The notes under the pieces: model-generated
The model's database searches: none
Seen by the model: only the letters and a program-made list of their open reading frames with translations
Told to the model about the DNA's origin: nothing
Shown here: one piece after another, positions 21,379-31,972 of the stretch
How positions within the stretch are numbered: the stretch's first letter is position 1
How the letters are laid out: the number at the start of each line of letters is the position of its first letter
Assembly (NCBI RefSeq): GCF_030158815.1
Contig: NZ_BPFZ01000008.1
Span: 1 to 64,000, forward strand
Direction of reading: 5' to 3'
Source: Candidatus Phycosocius spiralis
Lineage (GTDB): Bacteria; Pseudomonadota; Alphaproteobacteria; Caulobacterales; Aquidulcibacteraceae
Length of the DNA stretch: 64,000 nt
Translations under genes and position numbers: made by a program

Positions 21379-22015
21379 TGTGAATGAACCTCACCGCCGT
21401 GGTCTTATGCTAGCATTGGTCAGCCCTTCTGGGGCTGGTAAAACCACCTTGTCGCGCCGACTGGTGGACGAGGATCCCAATATTACTTTGTCGGTTTCTT
21501 GGACCACAAGGTCGCCACGTCCGGGCGAAGTAGATGGCATTCACTATCATTTTGTCGATAAGGATCAATTTCGTACCCACCGGGCCCACGATGGCTTTTT
21601 AGAATGGGCTGAAGTTCATGACCATTATTATGGCAGCCCCAGGGATAGTGCGTTTGCTCAATTGCGATCGGGCCACGATTTGATGTTTGATGTCGATTGG
21701 CAAGGTGCGCTGCAATTGCGTACCTCGGCCCCCGGGGATGTGGTTAAAGTCTTCATATTGCCGCCCAATATGGCTGAGCTTAAGCGGCGCTTAATCCTAC
21801 GTGGACAAGATAGCCCCGCAGTGATCAAAAAGCGGATGACCAATGCTTATGGGGAAATCAGTCGTTGGGAAAACTTTGATTATGTCTTGGTGAATGATGA
21901 CTTAGATCTAAGTTATGCGCGCTTAAAAACCATCCTCGAAGCAGAGCGGATGCGCCGAACTAGACAGCCCTGGCTTGGTGTCTTTGTACAGAGTCTGTTG
22001 CGTGAAGATACGTGA
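21368..22015 (+). CDS. gmk: Guanylate kinase
   Basis: Gmk phosphorylates GMP to GDP. The P-loop SPSGAGKTT lies near residue 19, followed by the GMP-binding text SWTTRSPRPGEVDGIHYHF. 215 aa. Its ATG is inside the end of yicC. Last gene of the fabD-to-gmk run; no terminator hairpin was seen in the following bases. Confidence 0.97.
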   Translation: MSNDVNEPHRRGLMLALVSPSGAGKTTLSRRLVDEDPNITLSVSWTTRSPRPGEVDGIHYHFVDKDQFRTHRAHDGFLEWAEVHDHYYGSPRDSAFAQLRSGHDLMFDVDWQGALQLRTSAPGDVVKVFILPPNMAELKRRLILRGQDSPAVIKKRMTNAYGEISRWENFDYVLVNDDLDLSYARLKTILEAERMRRTRQPWLGVFVQSLLREDT

Positions 22016-22441
22016 GCGCCGGCATACCTATTTGGCTGCCCCTTCATCGTTTGCTTTTTAGGGAGGTGCATTCAGGGCAAAAATTCTGAAACACTATGTA
22101 ACTCCGCACATACAATATCTGAGCATTGGTACGGGGAAGATTGGATGTCACGGCACCCATTTCGCACGTCGGGGGATGGCGAAGTTGACATCAAATGATA
22201 CGCAAAGCATCTTTCATTGGCAATCATGGAGGTGCATCGAAGCTTCAGGTCTTCCTGTGCACTCTACTGGTGCGGCCCGTAACTGTGTTATACTTCTTTT
22301 TGATTGACTGACGTGTATTGCGAAGGTATAATTTTCAATTTTTGGTTGTAATCTCGGTATGCTTTCCTAGCAAGCCTTCCACCCCTCATATGAAGGTTGG
22401 CATCAACCGAGGGAGTGTGGACAACAAAGTGGGGATAGCTG
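22016..22441. other. Gap of 426 bp with no recognised feature
   Basis: The stretch between gmk and the secreted unknown holds no open frame with protein-like text, no tRNA and no strong hairpin. A purine-rich ribosome-binding stretch (GTGGGGAT) lies just upstream of ATG 22442. Confidence 0.5.
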
Positions 22442-23041
22442 ATGAGGCGTTTAGCTCTATTTTTTTTGTTATCAATTAGTTTTGAGGCACCAGCAGCTAG
22501 TGCCCAAAATGTTGAGGCACGGAAAAATGGAATTATCACTAACTACGTAACGAAGGGCAGTTTAGAGGCAACTAGAAATATTGGTTGCATTAAGATTGCT
22601 AAAGCCAAAAGCGATTTTACACCACCAGATCTCCTTAAAGGTATGATTGCGTGCGTGCGGCGAAATGATTATGAGACTGCTGGCTATTTATACTATCTCG
22701 CACGCATTTATGCGGCGTTTGATTCCCTTCGCGTTTCTGATGTATCGGCTAGACAGGCAGGGACTGTCTTGTTGATCCAAACCTATGAAGAGTTGCAAGA
22801 AGATCAAAAGACACGACTTTCCGAAATGCTAGATAAAATCATGGGAACGCCGGAGCTTGAAAAGAGGCTTTGCGGTGATCTTCAGAAAGTTGGTATGCCA
22901 ACTTACCATCCCAAGTATATGATTTTACACGGAATGGGCGCTTTTTTTGGCGCCTCTGCTGAAGGGGGTTTAGTTGAGGACTTCGATGGCGCGAGTAACT
23001 GGAAGCAACTACTTGGAAGTCTCAAGGACTGTCCTGGTTAA
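22442..23041 (+). CDS. Secreted protein of unknown function
   Basis: 199 aa with a clear signal peptide: a basic start MRRLALFFLLS, a hydrophobic core, and a likely cut after ASA at about residue 21. The mature part is mostly helical in appearance, with four Cys (in IGCIK, IACVR, RLCGD and KDCPG) that could form two disulfides in the periplasm. I do not recognise the family. It stands alone between gmk and a convergent TM2 gene. Confidence 0.7.
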   Translation: MRRLALFFLLSISFEAPAASAQNVEARKNGIITNYVTKGSLEATRNIGCIKIAKAKSDFTPPDLLKGMIACVRRNDYETAGYLYYLARIYAAFDSLRVSDVSARQAGTVLLIQTYEELQEDQKTRLSEMLDKIMGTPELEKRLCGDLQKVGMPTYHPKYMILHGMGAFFGASAEGGLVEDFDGASNWKQLLGSLKDCPG

Positions 23042-23263
23042 ACGACTAGTATAGACTTCGTCGCTTTGTTTTAGGCATACATTAAGATAGCATTGAAATG
23101 GTCTTGAAAGAGGGGTCTCTTCCCTTCATGCTCCCCCACCCACGAAAATCCTGAAAGTCCCCACCTTTACTGGAGTCCCTCCCAACCAAAATTGGGTTAC
23201 CTTGAGATTCTGCTGCTCGCTGAACAGGCTTAGAGCTGCTCCAAGCGCACCCCGTGGACGCGT

Positions 23264-23569
23264 CTAATCCACTTGCAGCAGCTCCAAGGTCTCACGCGCG
23301 ATCCGGTCGCGCACCCGTTCACGGTCCTCCTGTAACATGCCCCCAAGCAGCACGCTATCGGCTAACCACCAAAGAAAGGAGATTGGTAAGCCTATTACGC
23401 TACAGGTCAACACCACCATGGCTAGTCCAGACTTTCCCCGCCCGACATAAAAGCGGTGGGCTCCAAGCCAGCCAAGAAAGAACCACATAACATAAGCTTG
23501 AAAGGGCGATTTGGTCTCTTCATCGACGCGTAAATCGATTGCGATCATTTCTGCTTCGGTGATTTCCAC
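23264..23569 (-). CDS. TM2-domain membrane protein
   Basis: 101 aa with two membrane helices and the TM2 signature: FFLGWLGAHRFYVGRGKSGLAM followed by a second helix ending in WWLADSVLL. TM2 proteins are small membrane proteins of mostly unknown role. The frame opens at GTG 23569; ATG 23548 (residue 8) is an alternative start. It lies 30 bases downstream of the region containing the pentapeptide gene's end, on the same strand order reversed, so it may be independently expressed. Confidence 0.8.
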   Translation of the reverse strand: MEITEAEMIAIDLRVDEETKSPFQAYVMWFFLGWLGAHRFYVGRGKSGLAMVVLTCSVIGLPISFLWWLADSVLLGGMLQEDRERVRDRIARETLELLQVD

Positions 23570-23599
23570 GATCCTTGGCTCCTAAGAAGCTAAATGAAT

Positions 23600-24403
23600 T
23601 TAGCGCGGACGTCGTGCCTTACAAGCGCGAATGGTCACACCGGGGGGAAGCACTGTTCCTTCATCACCGCATGCATCCTCCAATTGACGGGTTGTTAGGC
23701 CAAGAGCGGAAGCAAAATTGGCACCAGAAAGGTTGGCACCCGTAAAATCTGCGCCACCAAATCGGGTGCGACTGGCGCGGGCTTCGCGCAAAACAGTGCC
23801 GGTCAAATCAGCGCGCGATAGATCAGCCCCTTCAAACGTTGTGCGGACCATGGTCGCGCCGGTAAAATCAGCATTTACAAAGCTTACCCCCATCAACATC
23901 GCCCCGCTCAAGTTTGCGCCGCTGAAATCAGGGTTGGTGCCGCGCGTGCCTACAAATTTTGCCCCAACAAAATTAGCACCAATAAGCTCAGCATTAGAGA
24001 CATCAGCCCCGCCAAAATCTGCACCGCCAAAATTGGCCCCTGCCGCCTCAATCGAACGCATACCCGCGCCAACAAAACTAGCACCACGAAAAGTTGAGCC
24101 ATTCATTTCCGCACGGCTCAAATCGCCGCGATCAAAGCGGGATCCTGCAAAATTTCCTGCGGTCATTTCGGCGCTACGCAAAACTGACCCTGTGAAGTTA
24201 GCGCCGGCAAAATTACCAGTTGACATACGGGCATTCTCCATCCGTCGATCGGAGAGATCACAGCCCGTACAAAGGCCAGAAAACCGTCCGGCAAAGGTAA
24301 CTGTGTTTGGCTTGCCCCGCTGGTCCCACGCCAATGCCAAAACCGGCTGGGCAATTGGGGTTAGTACAAAAGCCAATAATAAAGATAATGCTCTTGAAGT
24401 CAT
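23600..24403 (-). CDS. Exported pentapeptide-repeat protein
   Basis: 267 aa. An N-terminal signal peptide (about residues 1-23, ending LALA) is followed by roughly 35 tandem A(N/D)(F/L)xx pentapeptides such as ANFTG, ADFGG and ADLSR, which fold into a right-handed square beta-helix. The C-terminal cap contains a Cys pair (ACGD and RACK) that could form a disulfide. Function is unknown; such proteins are often structural or binding scaffolds. Export to the periplasm is inferred from the signal peptide. Confidence 0.85.
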   Translation of the reverse strand: MTSRALSLLLAFVLTPIAQPVLALAWDQRGKPNTVTFAGRFSGLCTGCDLSDRRMENARMSTGNFAGANFTGSVLRSAEMTAGNFAGSRFDRGDLSRAEMNGSTFRGASFVGAGMRSIEAAGANFGGADFGGADVSNAELIGANFVGAKFVGTRGTNPDFSGANLSGAMLMGVSFVNADFTGATMVRTTFEGADLSRADLTGTVLREARASRTRFGGADFTGANLSGANFASALGLTTRQLEDACGDEGTVLPPGVTIRACKARRPR

Positions 24404-24555
24404 GGGTCTAGTTTAAGCAAGTTGCAGGAATTATCCACTTAAATGGTTGTAACAATCATGTCACAGATACCTATATACCACATTACCCTTTGAACAGGCG
24501 AATTTTCTTAACTTTACGATAGAAATCTACCTAATGACCATCCATTCTAACTTAA

Positions 24556-27327
24556 TCATGGGCCAACCCCGGTCTCTGATTGTTTGAGGCCCACCCAACC
24601 GCATGCATCACAGGCATAGCCATTCGGGCGATTGATCAGGGTAAAGTGCCCACAATCTGGACAAGGATCGCCTTCATACTGGGGCCCTATTTGGCTTGAG
24701 GTGGCCAATGGTGATGACACACCAACCGTACCTTCCGATGAGGATGAGCCTCTACGTCTAACCCGCTCTGCAGGGCTTGGTAAACGCACCAAATTATCAA
24801 TAAAGCTGCCGCGTGCGAAGCCTTTAGAAATAAAGCGCACAGGATCATGGGGATCATGATCAAGGCAACTCAAGTCTCCTAAGCTGGGATTTCCTGTGTC
24901 TGTTATATCTTCGTCACTATGCGTGTCACCTACGATGGCTAGGTCGTCACGTCCAAGATAGGAAACCGCTAATTCGCGGAACAAATAATCGAGAATAGAT
25001 GTCGCACGTGTGATGGAATCATTGCCCTCAACCTCGCCAGCAGGTTCAAACCTTGTACCAACAAAGGCATCGACGAATTCTTCAAGTGGGACGCCATATT
25101 GCAGGCCGATGGAGGTTGCGATGGCGAAATTATTCATCAAGGAGCGAAATGCTGCCCCTTCTTTATGCATATCAATAAAAATCTCACCAATTTCACCATC
25201 ATCAAACTCACCAGTATGTAAATAGACTTTGTGGCCCCCAACTGATGCCTTTTGGATATAACCTTTGCGACGATCGGGCAGACGACGCCTGGCTGTGGGC
25301 TGGGGGATCAAACGTTCCACCACGCGCTCAACTTGAACTTCAACGCGTTCGGATTTCACATCTTCTGGTATATTTTCAAATGCGCTCAACGCGTAAATTG
25401 GGGCATCAAATCTTGCTTGTTTGAAATCTAAACGAAAGCCGGCAAAGCCAATCAGGCCCAGATGTTTTGCAAGCTCTGCTGCGACTTCCCGACCATTTTC
25501 TTGGCGCAGGAGACAAAGGTTTAAGCGGATATGTCGACGCACATGCCCTTCTTGAGCAGCGGCGAGGCGAATGATGTCTTCGCGCTTGACCTCTGTAAAC
25601 ACTTCTCGATCGCCTAAGGGCTCCCAATGTTCCATCTGTCCTAAGGCCCAATGTTGCGCGCTAGCAATGTCTTGTGATGTAAATCCCAAGGCAGTGAGCA
25701 CATCAAAACCTGGCCGTAAAACTGCATCTAATGTGCATCCACACCATCGAGCCGTCTCTTCAGGACCCAAAATCCAAGGCGTGATGGCTGCACGTAAAGA
25801 GCGCGCACCAATCAAGGCTTCAGAAATCGCATGAAGACCTGCTTCATCAACACCCCGCGATGCCAAGGCTTCAAACGAAACACCAGGGGCTTGAGCCAAA
25901 GTCCTTGTACCTAATAAATGCTTGGCAATTTGGGCAGTGTCGCGGCCTAGGGTTTCAAGGCCCCGCTTCACATTGGGACGAAGTGCAAATGTAGTCTCCT
26001 CCCCGCCACAAGCTGTTTCAAAGGTTGGGCTTGATATAGGTTCAAGACCGCCCGCATCCGCTCCCAATAAGCTCAAGATCGTGGGCTGATCAACTGGGCG
26101 TAAATTGGTTACAAAACGGCCAGCAAACCTCTCATTATCTTGCAGGTTTGCTCGGTATAAACCTTCGCATGCCCGTTCAGCACCACGTGAGAGGGCACTT
26201 AACGCTGATTTGATCAACTCATGCCCTTCAAGGCTGCCATAGGCTTGCCCTCTCGCCATAATCAGGCCAGCACCATCACAATAGCCCAATTCACCAATAC
26301 GGTCTTTCGCCCATTCCTGCGCGCTTTTTTTGCTTGGGAATGCACTGACAAGTCCTAAACAATCCAGTGCAAGCCGCCATGCGGCTGCAACTGTCTCTAA
26401 ATCTCTAAACTGCATGTCTTGATAGAATGCAGAAAGGCAAAAGGTGACCATTGGACCACCAAAGGGCTGGGCAATAGTGTCGAAATCAAACTTGCAACCT
26501 GTTCTTGCAGCCTGCAATAGAAGATCACCATCCAAGTTTTCCCCCACAGGCAATAAAATGGTTGCAGGCCTTAAGGCTGGCGCGTCGTTAAAATCGACCT
26601 GCACGGGGTCCCCGAAATAGCCGTGCTTGGCATCGGCGATCGCTTCACCGATTGCCCCAGCAGGAACACCAACCCGAAAGGCTGCAGCGATGGCGCGTCC
26701 TAAAACTGGATTTTCGTGTGGATCGTCATGGCCAACCCCCTGCGCGCGACCAACTGCTGCACGCACACCCGATAAAGCATCGTTCATATGCTGTCTGCCG
26801 ACCGTCAGCGCCGATGCATCAAACTGGCGCTGCCGACGATGACATATACTATCTTGCGCATCACAATAGGCGATCACATCCTCTTGGCTATGTTCGCTAA
26901 GCCAAGGTGATGCAACCCCATGATCCTTGTAAGATCCAACATGGGTGTTAGAGACATAGAAACTTTGGTTGTGTTGATGTGAATGCGTTTGGGTTCCGAG
27001 TAAACCGCGAAAATAAGACGGGTCCAATGCGACTTGTCTGGCAAGCAAACTATTGGCTAATAAAGCTTCAAAACTTGTGCGCGCTTGCGTATCGAGCAAC
27101 AGACCAGCTGCCCAAGCCAAATTACCAATCCGACCCGCCACTTCAATGATTGCATCCCTGATAGAGCTATGATCGCTCAAACCCATCACTTCGCCAAAGG
27201 CTAGTACATGATCCAGGGTCCAACTGGGTGGAGCAAATAAGTGGCCAACCTCTAAGCCTGCTTCCCGCAGCATATCAGCATGGGATGCAAGACAAGCATG
27301 GTTGAAAAATCGCGAATCAAAGGTCAA
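24556..27327 (-). CDS. Degenerate class II ribonucleotide reductase-like protein (NrdJ paralogue)
   Basis: 923 aa from a TTG start. It is collinear with alphaproteobacterial B12-dependent NrdJ (about 1200 aa) over several blocks: [10 protein letters not shown] near 204, FPSKKSAQ at 330-337, a [19 protein letters not shown] block at 347-369, [11 protein letters not shown] at 462-472, and a very well kept C-terminal block from about 689 to 793 ([20 protein letters not shown], then [18 protein letters not shown]). A CPDC...CDAC zinc ribbon ends the protein. The catalytic NPCxE loop expected near 288-295 reads FGGPM, and the PTGTIG loop near 413-420 is not preserved. It is therefore probably not a reductase itself. 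Known family facts are the NrdJ motifs; loss of activity is inferred. Confidence 0.8.
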
Positions 27328-27580
27328 AGTTGCACCCTAGCGAATCAGAAACTCAATCATCGGCTGGAATAGGCTGACCGACTAGTCCTGAAACCAAAAA
27401 TTCTGCACCCAAAAGCTTTTTCTTTGGCCTGCCGCTTTCACTTGAAGGAATGGGCTTAGGAGGGCATAGTCAGATCATCATTGAACGGTCCGATTTACAT
27501 CTGGTCGGCCAAGTAGGTCTATGCTTGACGTGCCTTTATCTTACTGGGCGGAGCTGGGCAGGCCTTGAAAAGGAATAGCG

Positions 27581-27970
27581 GTGTTTGCAAAAGTTTTTAC
27601 ATGGTGGAATGGTGCAACGCTTGGTACCCTTTATGATATTGCAAAGCGGGCTGATTTGATCGGGGAAGACGATCAGGGCAATCGCTATTTTGAAGAGCGT
27701 AAAGCGACTTTAGAGGGGCGCAAAAGGCGCTATGTGATCTATAAGGGCTATGCTGAACCCTCTCGTGTACCCGTGGAATGGCATGGTTGGTTGCATCATA
27801 CGTTTGAGCATCCCCCAACTGTGGAGCCTTTTTTACTCAAGTCATGGGAAAAATCCCATCTGCCCAATTTAACCGGTACCGTTTTTGCTTATCGTCCAAA
27901 AGGCAGCTTAGGAGCTCTAGCGCGACGGGCTAGAGCTTCAAGCGATTATGAGGCGTGGTCGCCAAAGTGA
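27581..27970 (+). CDS. NDUFA12-family NADH:ubiquinone oxidoreductase accessory subunit
   Basis: A 129-aa homologue of the mitochondrial complex I accessory subunit NDUFA12 (B17.2), found in alphaproteobacteria. Key text: GNRYFEERK, RRYVIYKGYAEPSRVPVEWHGWLHH and PNLTGTVFAYRP. It is soluble and expected at the peripheral arm of complex I. Start is GTG 27581 with AAAAGGAA upstream. The TGA overlaps the next gene's ATG (TGATG). Encoded about 25 kb from the nuoDEF fragment in this window. Confidence 0.92.
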   Translation: MFAKVFTWWNGATLGTLYDIAKRADLIGEDDQGNRYFEERKATLEGRKRRYVIYKGYAEPSRVPVEWHGWLHHTFEHPPTVEPFLLKSWEKSHLPNLTGTVFAYRPKGSLGALARRARASSDYEAWSPK

Positions 27971-29034
27971 TGGAAGCTGTTAAACGCACGGGGGCGTTAA
28001 TCGGTGGCTCGATACTGATTGCCTTGGTTGGCGGTGGGGTTATTGCCAGGCAAGCAAATCCGGAGACTTCTAATGTTCGCTCTGCCAGCGGTGCGCAATC
28101 AGGGGGTGATCCCCAAAAACCTGAACCCACATCCCCCATTGCACCGCCTGTTTCCACGGGGGGTATCGACCCTGAATTAGGGCCAGTTGGGGAACCTGAA
28201 GCAGCCGATCTACCACCGGCGATGCGCCAAAATGGGGGTGGTGGTTGGCTCAGTCCAACCGATGAAATGCGCGCACGTATCCGCCGCGAGGCCAAGGAAC
28301 GGGCGGCAGAAGAACAGCGCGCTCTATCAAGTAGCGGATATGTGATGCCCCGATTGGTTGGGCCTACGATCCCCTTTGTTCCTCTGGAATTATTATTTCC
28401 ACCTGAAAGCGTTGAACAGGGCCCAAAGCCGGTAAGGGAACTTCGTGGAACAAGCATAGTTTTGGGTGCTTTAGATCGCGAAAAGGGAACCAATGTTCGC
28501 CTTAAGGTCTCGGTTGGAAGTCAGGTTACATATGGTTCGCTGCGTATGCGGGTGATGGCGTGTTATACCTCACACCCCGAAGACAGGTTGGAATCATGGG
28601 CCTATGTTGAAGTGACCGATATTGGACCGCAAAAGCTGAACCAATTGGCGGTATTACCACAAAGAAATAGTCGTTCAAACAGGGACGCTAATGCCCTACG
28701 CGTTATTCGTAAAGGGTGGATCATCGCCTCAAGTCCTGCTGTGACGCCTATTGATCATCCAACTTACGATATGTGGTTGGTTGCTTGTGATGGGGCAGAA
28801 CTACCCCCAGCAAGTGCGCTTCAATCCGCATCAGACATAACTCCCCCACGCTCACAGGCCAAACAGGCTGCGGCTCAAGATGAGGCCCTTCGTTCTTCGG
28901 TAGAGGCGCAGGTTCAAGATAAAGGTGCGATAAATCAAGGTGACAGTCCCTTGCCACTGGATGAACCTGTCTTAGATGCTGCCCCATCCCCGTTACCATC
29001 AAATCAGGTGCAGGAAAAGTCGACGCGCAATTAA
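27970..29034 (+). CDS. DUF2155-domain protein, membrane-anchored
   Basis: 354 aa. One N-terminal hydrophobic segment (about residues 8-25) is followed by a Pro-rich linker and a DUF2155 domain running from GTSIVLGALDREKGT to [21 protein letters not shown] low-complexity tail of about 85 residues follows. The function of DUF2155 is not known; the gene is often next to the NDUFA12 gene. ATG 27970 (TGATG overlap) is preferred to the in-frame GTG at 27955. Its last 287 bases overlap the convergent aat frame. Confidence 0.85.
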   Translation: MEAVKRTGALIGGSILIALVGGGVIARQANPETSNVRSASGAQSGGDPQKPEPTSPIAPPVSTGGIDPELGPVGEPEAADLPPAMRQNGGGGWLSPTDEMRARIRREAKERAAEEQRALSSSGYVMPRLVGPTIPFVPLELLFPPESVEQGPKPVRELRGTSIVLGALDREKGTNVRLKVSVGSQVTYGSLRMRVMACYTSHPEDRLESWAYVEVTDIGPQKLNQLAVLPQRNSRSNRDANALRVIRKGWIIASSPAVTPIDHPTYDMWLVACDGAELPPASALQSASDITPPRSQAKQAAAQDEALRSSVEAQVQDKGAINQGDSPLPLDEPVLDAAPSPLPSNQVQEKSTRN

Positions 29035-29605
29035 TGGCGTCTTTTAGCAAGATTTGATAGTCGGCGCGCGCCACTTCTGTTGCACCAAATTGTTTGAGAT
29101 GTTGTGTTAGAAATTGTGTGTCGAGCAGTCTAAACCCACCGCTGATCAAATGGCCAAGTAAATGAACAAGGGCTATTTTACTGGCATCGCGCGCACGTGT
29201 GAACATGCTTTCGCCAAAAAAGGCCGCCCCAAGTCTGACCCCATAAAGCCCGCCTACCAGCTGATCGCCCAGCCAAGTTTCTACGCTAACGCCATGTCCA
29301 CGCCGGTATAAGCCATCATAAAGCTCAAGAATCGGCTGATTAATCCATGTCTCTTCGCGCGATTCTTGTGGTGCTGCGCAATTCTCCACGACCTTGCGAA
29401 ATGCACGATTGATCGTCACGCGATAGGGTTCGTTGCGCACACTCCGTTTGAGGCGACGGGGGATGTGGATATTCTCAAACGCTAAGATCCCACGTTGCTC
29501 TGGATCGACAAGGAAAAGGCGTGGATCATCACGCCCATCAGCCATCGGAAAAATCCCGCGTGCATAACATGCCAAAAGCTCTTCGGGGCCAAAGCCCATG
29601 CTCAT
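28748..29605 (-). CDS. aat: Leucyl/phenylalanyl-tRNA-protein transferase
   Basis: Aat attaches Leu or Phe to N-terminal Arg/Lys of proteins and marks them for ClpAP. The opening [23 protein letters not shown] and the motif [20 protein letters not shown] with [16 protein letters not shown] are diagnostic. The family usually ends near 210-230 residues. Here the frame continues to 285, and everything after about residue 190 is antisense to the DUF2155 gene. The start overlaps the accC stop by 4 bases (ATGA). Confidence 0.92.
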
Positions 29606-30960
29606 GCAGGCTTATCCTCCCCATGCTCATTGAGCCATTGTTCAAGCCAATGGATGTTATAATTACCATCGATAATGTCGCGCTCTTGCACCAAGCGCAA
29701 AAACAAGGGGATAGTGGTTTTAACCCCGCCTATCACCATTTCGGCTAAAGAGCGCCGCAGACGCATTAAGCACTCGTTCCGGTTGCGGCCATGGACAATA
29801 AGCTTGCCGATCAGACTGTCGTAATAAGGAGGGATTTTATAGCCCGTATAAATAGCCGAATCCAATCGAACTCCAAGGCCACCAGGCGCGTGGAAGTCGG
29901 TAATGGTGCCAGGTGAAGGTACAAAGCTAACAGGATCTTCGGCATTAACCCGGCATTCAATTGCGACGCCCTCAAAAATCACTTCGTCTTGGGTAAAGGA
30001 TAAGGGCATACCCGCGGCAATACGGATCTGTTCGCGTACCAAATCCACGCCCGTGATCATTTCGGTGACAGGATGCTCAACTTGCAGGCGCGTATTCATT
30101 TCAATGAAGTAGAATTGACCATCCTCATATAAAAACTCAATGGTACCAACGCCCAGATAACCCAGCGCCTTAATGGCCTTAACAACCACATCGCCTATTT
30201 GGCTGCGCTCTCTTGCATTGAGTGCTGGGGAGGGGGCCTCTTCCCAGACTTTCTGGTGACGGCGCTGGAGTGAGCAATCGCGTTCGCCTAAATGGACAAC
30301 ATTGCCATATTCATCTGCAATTACTTGAATTTCAATATGGCGAGGTTGGCCTAAGTATTTTTCAAGATAGACCGTATCATCGCCAAATGCGTTCTTGGCT
30401 TCGCTGCGCGCTGTGGATAAAGCAACGGACAACTCTTCCTTGCTATGGGCCACTTTCATGCCACGCCCGCCGCCGCCAGCCGAAGCTTTAACCAAGACGG
30501 GATAGCCAATTTCTTGAGCAATTGCTAAAGCCGTCACATCATCATTAATGCCGCCATCCGAGCCTGGAACCACAGGAATACCAGCAGCCTTCACTGCAGT
30601 TTTGGCAGCAATTTTATCGCCCATCATCCGTATATGTTCAGCGCGCGGCCCGATGAATACAAGCCCGTGCGCGTTGATTATTTCTGCAAACTTAGCATTT
30701 TCGGACAAGAATCCATAACCTGGGTGAATGGCTTGCGCGCCAGTGATTTCGCATGCAGCGATCAAAGCTGGGATATTAAGATAAGATTTCGCGGCAGCAG
30801 GAGGACCCAAGCAAACGCTTTCGTCGGCGAGGCGAACATGCATGGCATCTGCATCGGCTGTGGAATGGACGGCGACCGTGTTAATGCCCATCTCTTTGCA
30901 AGCGCGATGGATCCGCAGGGCAATTTCACCCCGATTGGCAATGAGAACTTTATCAAACAC
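29602..30960 (-). CDS. accC: Acetyl-CoA carboxylase, biotin carboxylase subunit
   Basis: AccC carboxylates biotin on AccB using ATP and bicarbonate, the first step of malonyl-CoA formation. The N-terminal [20 protein letters not shown], the Gly-rich ATP loop [13 protein letters not shown] and the catalytic [13 protein letters not shown] are all present. 452 aa is standard. It follows accB by 15 bases and runs into aat, so accB-accC-aat form an operon. Confidence 0.97.
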
Positions 30961-30975
30961 CTGTGTGTTACCCCC

Positions 30976-31473
30976 TTATTCGATCACGCAGAGTGCTTCA
31001 CCATATTCAACGGGTTGGGCATCATGTACCAAGATAGCAGTAACAATGCCGGCACATGGGGCTAAAACAGGGTTCATGGTTTTCATCGCTTCGATAATGA
31101 ATAATTGTTGACCTTCCTTCACACTATCACCAACCGTGACAAAGGCAGACGCACCAGGCTCTGGCTGGGTATAGACGGTACCGACCATGGGCGAAGGGAC
31201 CGCACCTTGATGTTTGTTTAAACCGGTGCTTGACGCAGTGGCGGGTGCAGACAGGTGGGGCGAGGGTGGTATTTGGGTCACGCTGGGCTGCTTTGCCACC
31301 GGTACAGGGAGTTGGATTGGTTGAGGTGCAGGAACTATGGGCGTAACATTGGCTTGGCGGACAACGCGCACGCGTACCCCTTGGTTTTCGACTTCGATCT
31401 CGCTCAGATCCGTATCGCGTAGAATGCGCGCAAGGTCCTTGACCAATTTGGTGTCAAATCCTGATTGCGTCAT
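30976..31473 (-). CDS. accB: Acetyl-CoA carboxylase, biotin carboxyl carrier protein
   Basis: The C-terminal biotinyl domain carries the biotin Lys131 in EAMKTMNP (KTM in place of the common KMM/KLM). A Pro/Ala-rich hinge covers about residues 45-85. 165 aa. Start ATG 31473 with GGAGAC nearby upstream. It lies 52 bases downstream of aroQ, the usual aroQ-accB-accC order. Confidence 0.96.
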   Translation of the reverse strand: MTQSGFDTKLVKDLARILRDTDLSEIEVENQGVRVRVVRQANVTPIVPAPQPIQLPVPVAKQPSVTQIPPSPHLSAPATASSTGLNKHQGAVPSPMVGTVYTQPEPGASAFVTVGDSVKEGQQLFIIEAMKTMNPVLAPCAGIVTAILVHDAQPVEYGEALCVIE

Positions 31474-31525
31474 GCATGTCTCCTTGTGACCAGTGTGCGC
31501 GCTGTGATGAAAAAGGCGCTAGGCA

Positions 31526-31972
31526 TCATCTTTTGTGGGTAAGTTTGATATGAAGTGCTTCTATTCCAAGTAGATAAGAGTGCAGGCCGAATCCAGCAAT
31601 CGTTCCAGTGGCAGCCATTCCAACATAGCTTTGATGGCGAAAAGATTCCCTGCGTAGGGGATTAGAAAGATGAATTTCAACCACGGGAATTATGATCGAT
31701 TTCAGGCAATCATAGAGCGCAATGGAGCTATGGGTCAAACCGCCAGCATTTAACAAGATACCAGATGCTTGCACGCGGCCTTCTTGTAGCCAGTCGATCA
31801 AAACGCCTTCATGATTGGTTTGTCGGAAAACGAATGTACGAGATAATTGAGCTATTTTCTCAGCACAAGCGGCCTCAATATCGGTCAATGTGTCAGTTCC
31901 GTAGATTTCAGGTTCACGGCTACCTGATAGGTTCAGATTAGGCCCATTGAGCACGAAGATCGGTTTTTCCAT
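31526..31972 (-). CDS. aroQ: Type II 3-dehydroquinate dehydratase
   Basis: Third step of the shikimate pathway. Family markers: VLNGPNLNLSGSREPEIYG (catalytic Tyr in EIYG), QTNHEGVLIDWL, LLNAGGLTHSSIAL, VVEIHLSNP and GFGLHSYLLG. 148 aa is standard for the type II dodecameric enzyme. First gene of the aroQ-accB-accC-aat transcription unit; divergent from thiS, with 138 bp between. Confidence 0.96.
   Translation of the reverse strand: MEKPIFVLNGPNLNLSGSREPEIYGTDTLTDIEAACAEKIAQLSRTFVFRQTNHEGVLIDWLQEGRVQASGILLNAGGLTHSSIALYDCLKSIIIPVVEIHLSNPLRRESFRHQSYVGMAATGTIAGFGLHSYLLGIEALHIKLTHKR

Follow-up and report, generated by a model that had tools for sequence, protein, structure and literature searches.

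A class II ribonucleotide reductase orthologue that has lost its catalytic motifs and kept its TSCPD domain in Candidatus Phycosocius spiralis and other Alphaproteobacteria

The window analysed here is a stretch of 64,000 nucleotides from the genome of Candidatus Phycosocius spiralis (contig NZ_BPFZ01000008.1, positions 1 to 64,000), and the subject is a gene on its reverse strand, at 24556-27327, that descends from nrdJ, the gene for the class II ribonucleotide reductase (RNR) of Alphaproteobacteria. It is a single open reading frame of 923 aa from which the catalytic motifs of the reductase are missing and in which one C-terminal domain, TSCPD, is conserved to the degree seen in full enzymes. 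Genes of this kind are called dead below, and full class II reductases are called true NrdJs. The parts of the gene are as follows.

24556..27327, reverse strand: whole gene, a degenerate NrdJ orthologue of 923 aa with a TTG start at 27325-27327
25348..27327, reverse strand: pseudo-barrel, residues 1-660, an RNR fold without catalytic residues
26425..26466, reverse strand: strand of the second active-site cysteine, residues 288-301; the finger loop (NPCxE) expected before it is deleted in the alignment
25618..25977, reverse strand: helical insert after the phosphate loop, residues 451-570; identity among dead proteins 0.29-0.36, predicted local distance difference test score (pLDDT) mostly >90
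24931..25290, reverse strand: TSCPD (IscU-like, cysteine-free), residues 680-799, the conserved core (PF12637, E 1.7e-12)
24601..24663, reverse strand: zinc ribbon, residues 889-909 (C889, C892, C906, C909), redox cysteine pair lost

A sequence-only reading of this stretch had traced the protein to NrdJ, and both profile and fold bear out that descent. The NCBIfam model of alphaproteobacterial NrdJ, PRK07562, matches at E 2.1e-99, in pieces of which the best covers residues 650-910, and its 333.7 bits fall short of the cut-off of 1737. In Pfam only TSCPD (residues 695-787) rises above its gathering cut-off (45.5 against 22.8 bits), the RNR barrel model PF02867 reaching 15.4 of the 23.9 bits needed (E 0.0074). 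A model from AlphaFold2 on 45 alignment rows (mean pLDDT 73.2, most of TSCPD about 90; predicted template modelling score 0.59) was placed nearest to Rhodobacter sphaeroides NrdJ by both Foldseek (E 5e-18) and VIA-align, the latter aligning 582 residues with 7b9q_A at Z 22.6 and a root-mean-square deviation of 6.2. Because the predicted fold matches that enzyme the chain appears to follow NrdJ, and the reductase barrel fold seems to be still present.

Seven reductase motifs were compared between 57 dead proteins (the window protein, 40 loci of its order and 16 named loci) and 77 true NrdJs, some of them cut by contig ends. None of the dead rows held any motif, and each was present in 64-77 of the true rows. 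Five dead rows (L007, L058, L070, L122, L141) are incomplete or broken frames in which not every motif could appear, the other 52 being whole, and PTGTIG was partly used to sort dead from true rows, so that the other six motifs form the independent evidence. The PTGTIG phosphate loop, which the sequence-only reading described as changed, is lost from all 57, as is the active-site cysteine pair (ACFI, CNLAS), and the thiyl cysteine of the NxCxE finger loop is absent from the window protein and from 57/57 rows. The same reading had NPCxE replaced by FGGPM; the finger-loop cysteine is indeed gone, but FGGPM aligns, uncertainly at this place, with the strand of the second active-site cysteine (TACNLAS), and the NPCxE loop is deleted. 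The available part of Loderer et al. (PMC5704485) describes the cysteine-rich end of NrdJ as four predicted zinc cysteines and two of a redox pair. Six cysteines were found there in 76 of the 77 true NrdJs, and four, in a CxxC...CxxC pattern, in 56 of the 57 dead proteins, L058 ending before this region; on the roles given by that source the four zinc cysteines are retained and both redox cysteines are lost. By its sequence the window protein is thus a class II barrel stripped of its radical site, of the phosphate loop and the active-site cysteines, and of the redox relay at the C-terminus. One locus, L041:2-2119, was excluded from the motif counts; on this Brevundimonas metagenome contig a live-type barrel is joined to a dead-type Caulobacteraceae tail, possibly through chimeric assembly or recombination.

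Identity was compared by windows of 30 residues over 52 dead and 67 true rows. Across residues 691-780 the dead proteins resemble one another at 0.89, 0.95 and 0.82 and the true ones at 0.87, 0.90 and 0.82, with 0.81, 0.88 and 0.74 between dead and true; outside residues 661-840 identity among dead proteins is 0.18-0.38 per window and among true NrdJs 0.23-0.97, mostly >0.5. The claim of a preserved C-terminus made from the sequence alone therefore stands for TSCPD and fails for the zinc ribbon with its missing redox cysteines. Since several lineages drop the zinc ribbon yet hold on to TSCPD, the retained unit is TSCPD and not the whole C-terminus.

Ratios of non-synonymous to synonymous substitution (dN/dS, Nei-Gojobori method) were estimated for seven same-genus pairs, of which the pair with the window gene was saturated and gave no estimate and only L116/L120 and L123/L121 were mostly below dS saturation. 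In these two the ratio was 0.03-0.16 for barrel and insert, against 0.014 and 0 for TSCPD; other pairs with a defined dS gave 0.02-0.18 in barrel and insert, and TSCPD, whose constraint is close to the maximum, did not exceed 0.018 in any of the six usable pairs. Because these same-genus ratios are low, the barrel too is judged to be under purifying selection within the genus, though it diverges fast between genera. A pseudoenzyme with a dead barrel and a preserved tail, kept under selection, had been proposed earlier, and the motif counts and these ratios sustain it. In the two closest same-genus pairs the proportion of synonymous differences (pS) was lower in the TSCPD stretch than in the rest of the gene (0.19-0.23 vs 0.28-0.64). 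An overlapping gene or constraint at the DNA level was considered for the conservation of the tail and rejected, as the distant pair L118/L116 has a tail pS of 0.69 against 0.70-0.75 elsewhere; no other open reading frame of >=90 aa overlaps 24556-27327.

The following genes surround the dead gene in the window.

27581..27970, forward strand: NDUFA12 homologue (PF05071), the divergent neighbour that marks the ancestral nrdJ locus
27955..31972: conserved flank of DUF2155 (forward strand), Aat, AccC, AccB and AroQ (all reverse strand)
23600..24403, reverse strand: pentapeptide-repeat gene (PF00805), downstream; it adjoins NDUFA12 where nrdJ is absent

Dead genes adjoin a divergent NDUFA12 and DUF2155, in most cases followed by Aat, AccC, AccB and AroQ, and have the pentapeptide-repeat gene on their other side. 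NDUFA12 and DUF2155 were found in 39 of 40 fetched dead loci, the exception (L122) being a contig of 3 kb. True NrdJs stand at the same flank in L013, L014 and L019 (26 of 80 loci examined) and also in L159 and L167-L171, six of the 14 NrdJ loci of the order numbered L158-L171; at the other eight NDUFA12 was not within the fetched stretch, and some may have moved. Because the same neighbours stand beside dead and true genes, the gene is, judged by its surroundings, an nrdJ orthologue that decayed in place and not the paralogue that it had been taken for. Nor was a second NrdJ found in the window genome (2.5 Mb, 48 contigs), where PF02867 picks out a class I frame only and PRK07562 that frame and the dead gene; this rejects a paralogue of a working NrdJ. 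No separate working NrdJa barrel, as in a split class II RNR, was seen in this genome. Its class I large subunit (L156:6397-8295) is intact, at 1038.9 bits against a PRK09102 cut-off of 620, so that the pseudoenzyme also survives the check for an intact RNR, a check that covered the large subunit.

Distribution was surveyed in 200 genomes of the order, each >=90% complete and drawn evenly, the order being taken as Caulobacterales sensu lato, with named Maricaulis, Caulobacter, Brevundimonas and Hyphomonas loci among its rows. Forty-one genomes lay above the NrdJ cut-off, another seven fell slightly short of it or had the gene divided by a contig end, one had an NrdJ without TSCPD (G198), one had TSCPD only in another class II type (G002), ten had neither NrdJ nor TSCPD, and 140 had a TSCPD gene with only pieces of the NrdJ profile. 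Forty-two of these 140 were read (the window, the 40 loci and one more) and the others are assigned by profile pattern. One of 12 genomes first scored as lacking TSCPD was found to hold a dead copy after all. Where the site could be inspected the absence of the gene is genuine: of 11 NDUFA12 loci from genomes without a dead gene, nine had the pentapeptide-repeat gene adjoining. Another frame lies there in G098, NrdJ lies elsewhere in G198, and G152 gave no NDUFA12 match. PF02867 had some match in 200/200 genomes, and in those scored as dead the best match reached at least E 3e-74, with the exception of G137. There PF02867 yields one weak match (E 1.1e-14), from an assembly with a completeness rating of 100%, and no intact RNR large subunit was seen. 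G169 and G184, with a live NrdJ, have only two matches of about 1e-106, so that class I is not shown in every genome. In about 32 genomes an additional class II-like frame was noticed (many of 740-850 aa, some with their own TSCPD), mostly beside the dead gene, and B12-dependent reduction may have been regained through it. The control genome, Caulobacter vibrioides, passes the TSCPD cut-off and not that of the NrdJ model, and dead forms were read in two other Caulobacter genomes (L042, L043). From the profile pattern of C. vibrioides it is very probable that Caulobacter crescentus carries the dead form.

The converse arrangement occurs in G198, where a 901-aa NrdJ (L157:5005-7710, reverse strand) has NPCSE, PTGTIG, both active-site cysteine motifs and the six-cysteine end, no TSCPD by Pfam and, by eye, almost no helical insert; the genome has no TSCPD match at all. 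Given its motifs this NrdJ is presumably active. Dead barrels with TSCPD on one side and a reductase without it on the other indicate that domain and catalysis are uncoupled in both directions.

Comparable genes are found in other families of the class: L172 (f134), L173, L177, L178, L180 and L181 (f142/f146), L189-L191 (f26) and L192 (f88), with NDUFA12 adjoining in L173, L177, L180, L181 and L189-L192 and not recognised at L172 and L178. A class-wide sample of 289 genomes had the tail in 193, most of the listed tail frames being about 1200-1360 aa, and in at least 15 of the 193, identified by following up the short frames, the tail lies outside a full-length NrdJ. Dead barrels with TSCPD occur in G383 (918 aa, four-cysteine ribbon present, redox pair lost) and, without a zinc ribbon, in G457, G490 and G491 (812-845 aa) and G485 and G488 (1019-1089 aa). 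The order of G457 has the tail in eight of 33 genomes, and never within a frame of full length (G489 and G492 were not read). More diverged TSCPD domains, 43-55% identical, are carried by G220 (530 aa), G330 (565 aa), G478 and G282 (partly read). At the extreme are stand-alone TSCPD frames of 277-301 aa beside NDUFA12: those of G281, G372 and G447, single contigs of 1.2-1.3 Mb, have no zinc ribbon, and those of G206 and G401 (1.4 Mb, 93 and 90% complete) have the four-cysteine ribbon. In all five, PF02867 finds class I only. G469 has a similar stand-alone TSCPD but also a class II frame of 854 aa, and G487 a lone 205-aa TSCPD frame with an unrecognised flank. The genome that holds L172 has the tail a second time at a contig edge, G383:C13:3-221, with 100% identity over 73 aa. 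A tree of four flanking genes (64 rows) has four changes between live and dead, three of them forced by well-supported branches, and a tail tree was built from 161 rows and 117 columns. Because of the trees and the differing end products (with or without zinc ribbon, insert or barrel), repeated independent decay is likely.

The TSCPD domain itself, modelled alone, reached a pLDDT of 93.4. VIA-align listed a lipoyltransferase first (Z 6.1) and then many IscU/SufU entries (Z 3.2-5.2); Foldseek had no structure below E 0.001, matches appearing only at E >0.1, and a sequence search of the PDB gave no relative, the single match (E 0.97) being at chance level. The fold result agrees with the available text of a 2022 paper (PMC9669993), in which an IscU-like domain is named in the C-termini of long class II RNRs and its role is stated as not reported. 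There is no cysteine in residues 683-799 of the window protein, where the Cys/Asp cluster ligands of IscU were looked for and not found. As its TSCPD is without cysteine, an IscU-type cluster on it is unlikely. The Bradyrhizobium phage BDU-MI-1 has a gene annotated as class II RNR, and the tail encoded there (KY940711.1:31267-31614) shares 67% identity with the window TSCPD.

Taken together, it is probable that TSCPD has a role independent of the reductase, likely in protein binding or oligomerisation, and that the nrdJ orthologue persists after the death of the reductase for this reason. We hold it rather likely, too, that TSCPD is an ancient and widespread alphaproteobacterial module with a cellular function of its own, carried along on the class II RNR, and that in several lineages the enzyme died or vanished around it, as far as a lone TSCPD gene in small genomes. 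The module would be IscU-like and cysteine-free, with a second job unrelated to ribonucleotide reduction, and since the tail is equally constrained in live NrdJ that second role would already exist there. With class I making the deoxyribonucleoside triphosphates (dNTPs) in genomes with the dead form, class II would have become redundant, and the barrel could then have decayed to a scaffold or disappeared. TSCPD would be kept because its cellular partner persists, one candidate being class I RNR itself or a protein of its redox supply or regulation.

A number of observations weigh against this reading. The tail gene is not indispensable, being absent from 10/200 genomes of the order and from 96/289 class-wide, and in eight of those ten NDUFA12 adjoins the pentapeptide-repeat gene with no nrdJ remnant between them. 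The resemblance to IscU is modest (Z 5.2 and below). The low dN/dS of the barrel within a genus means that it may be more than a scaffold. The tail tree is weak, with several long rows and seven changes on the best tree of which well-supported branches force one, and the frame is broken at one locus (L141).

The broken frame bears on the view that the gene is an ordinary pseudogene or a sequencing artefact, as does a stop inside the profile match of G093. This view has next to no probability and is contradicted by single open frames of 776-1012 aa at 38 of the 40 fetched loci and by dN/dS far below 1. One of the other two loci is the 3-kb contig and the other is L141, where a single-contig assembly, 92% complete, has the dead gene as two separate frames, through sequencing error or a real break. 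In G093 the frame is nevertheless open for 1008 aa through the zinc ribbon. An action through binding NrdJ had also been suggested earlier. Although the protein derives from NrdJ, it is extremely improbable that it partners a true NrdJ encoded at another locus, and this is contradicted here, since no other NrdJ was found in the window genome. Of the 48 genomes of the order whose NrdJ is of the full PRK07562 type, all but G178 show a single TSCPD match; the second match of G178 lies in a 743-aa class II frame.

The main rival, a role with the class I enzyme, is unlikely: the dead NrdJ or its TSCPD would act as a regulatory subunit of class I RNR and adjust the supply of dNTPs by binding NrdA, NrdB, thioredoxin or NrdR. 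The strong PF02867 matches of all dead-scored genomes of the order but G137 are beyond the reach of the dead gene itself (E 0.0074), a class I-type frame is present in all 17 of the genomes with dead or stand-alone forms that were checked outside the order, and NrdJb, its homologue in split class II enzymes, attaches to the catalytic subunit according to the available part of PMC4520616. However, the tail is just as constrained in true NrdJ, the redox pair needed for contact with an active site has been lost, the stand-alone forms of f87 also lack the zinc ribbon, and the tail-less genomes G019 and G032 have class I too. It is improbable that the zinc ribbon and the basic leader of TSCPD (PDRRKGYxQ) contact DNA or RNA; the leader is mostly invariant and the PUR-repeat protein PURA is in the fold list, but its Z of 4.9 lies within the tool's stated chance range and none of the f87, f142 and f146 forms read has the ribbon. 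A neofunctionalised enzyme, in which the barrel has a different catalytic or ligand-binding activity, is very improbable. Such an enzyme would agree with the predicted retention of the barrel fold and with the same-genus barrel dN/dS of 0.02-0.18; yet barrel identity among dead proteins is only 0.18-0.38, almost every column that is invariant across the dead and true rows combined falls in the tail (a search for new sites in dead rows only was not made), and other families have forms of 530-565 aa or stand-alone forms.

The protein resembles alphaproteobacterial NrdJ (PRK07562; 7b9p/7b9q) in locus, predicted fold, domain order, helical insert, TSCPD and four zinc cysteines, and differs in having no finger-loop cysteine, phosphate loop, active-site pair or redox pair and in its profile score. 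Like NrdJb, the small subunit of the split class II RNR of Pseudomonas aeruginosa, it combines an IscU-like/TSCPD domain and a zinc finger with no working barrel; in the text available from PMC4520616 NrdJb performs thiol exchange with NrdJa, whereas the dead protein has no redox pair left and a class II barrel to partner it was looked for and not found. TSCPD is the same domain as the IscU-like C-terminal domain in the available part of PMC9669993, but appears here uncoupled from catalysis and in some genomes stands alone; neither a dead nor a stand-alone form appears in that text. By analogy only, the cytomegalovirus proteins M45/UL45 are homologues of the RNR large subunit that are called inactive, with another function, in the accessible text of PMC5469499; that case is viral, and here a bacterial class II orthologue has its accessory domain as the retained unit. 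In the open-licence papers searched no description was found of a bacterium in which a class II orthologue is dead or TSCPD stands alone, nor any paper on TSCPD with ribonucleotide reductase, and TSCPD alone gave nothing relevant. A related phylogeny removed sequences >1100 residues (PMC9531940, available part), a length that the full alphaproteobacterial NrdJs here exceed.

With the role of the IscU-like domain given as not reported in the available 2022 text (PMC9669993), these genes make the question testable in C. crescentus, an easy model. Its gene CCNA_01966 is drawn as NrdJ in a figure of B12 pathways (PMC6538847, seen in part); if it is dead, its B12-dependent nucleotide reduction should leave pathway maps, and a conserved alphaproteobacterial function awaits discovery. 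If the reading of TSCPD is true, the label 'B12-dependent ribonucleotide reductase' in Caulobacter and in small genomes of 1.2-1.4 Mb names a protein with another job.

Around the start of the gene no cobalamin riboswitch was seen, in keeping with the sequence-only reading; Rfam gave nothing in 22000-30000 at E<=1. In 39 regions around the frame start there were no LexA sites, no CtrA sites (one half-site) and one NrdR-like site; GANTC was present in 32 of the 39, chance expectation not having been computed. Seven same-genus genomes have GTG at the position that aligns with the TTG start and so support it, and the frame from an ATG further upstream is closed in the window and in L117, as read by eye. 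This ATG belongs to a block, ATGAT-N8-TGATTCGC, that lies just upstream of the start codon (27328-27400 in the window, and seven same-genus loci) and is kept in eight genomes, in six of which the ATG is in frame with the gene.

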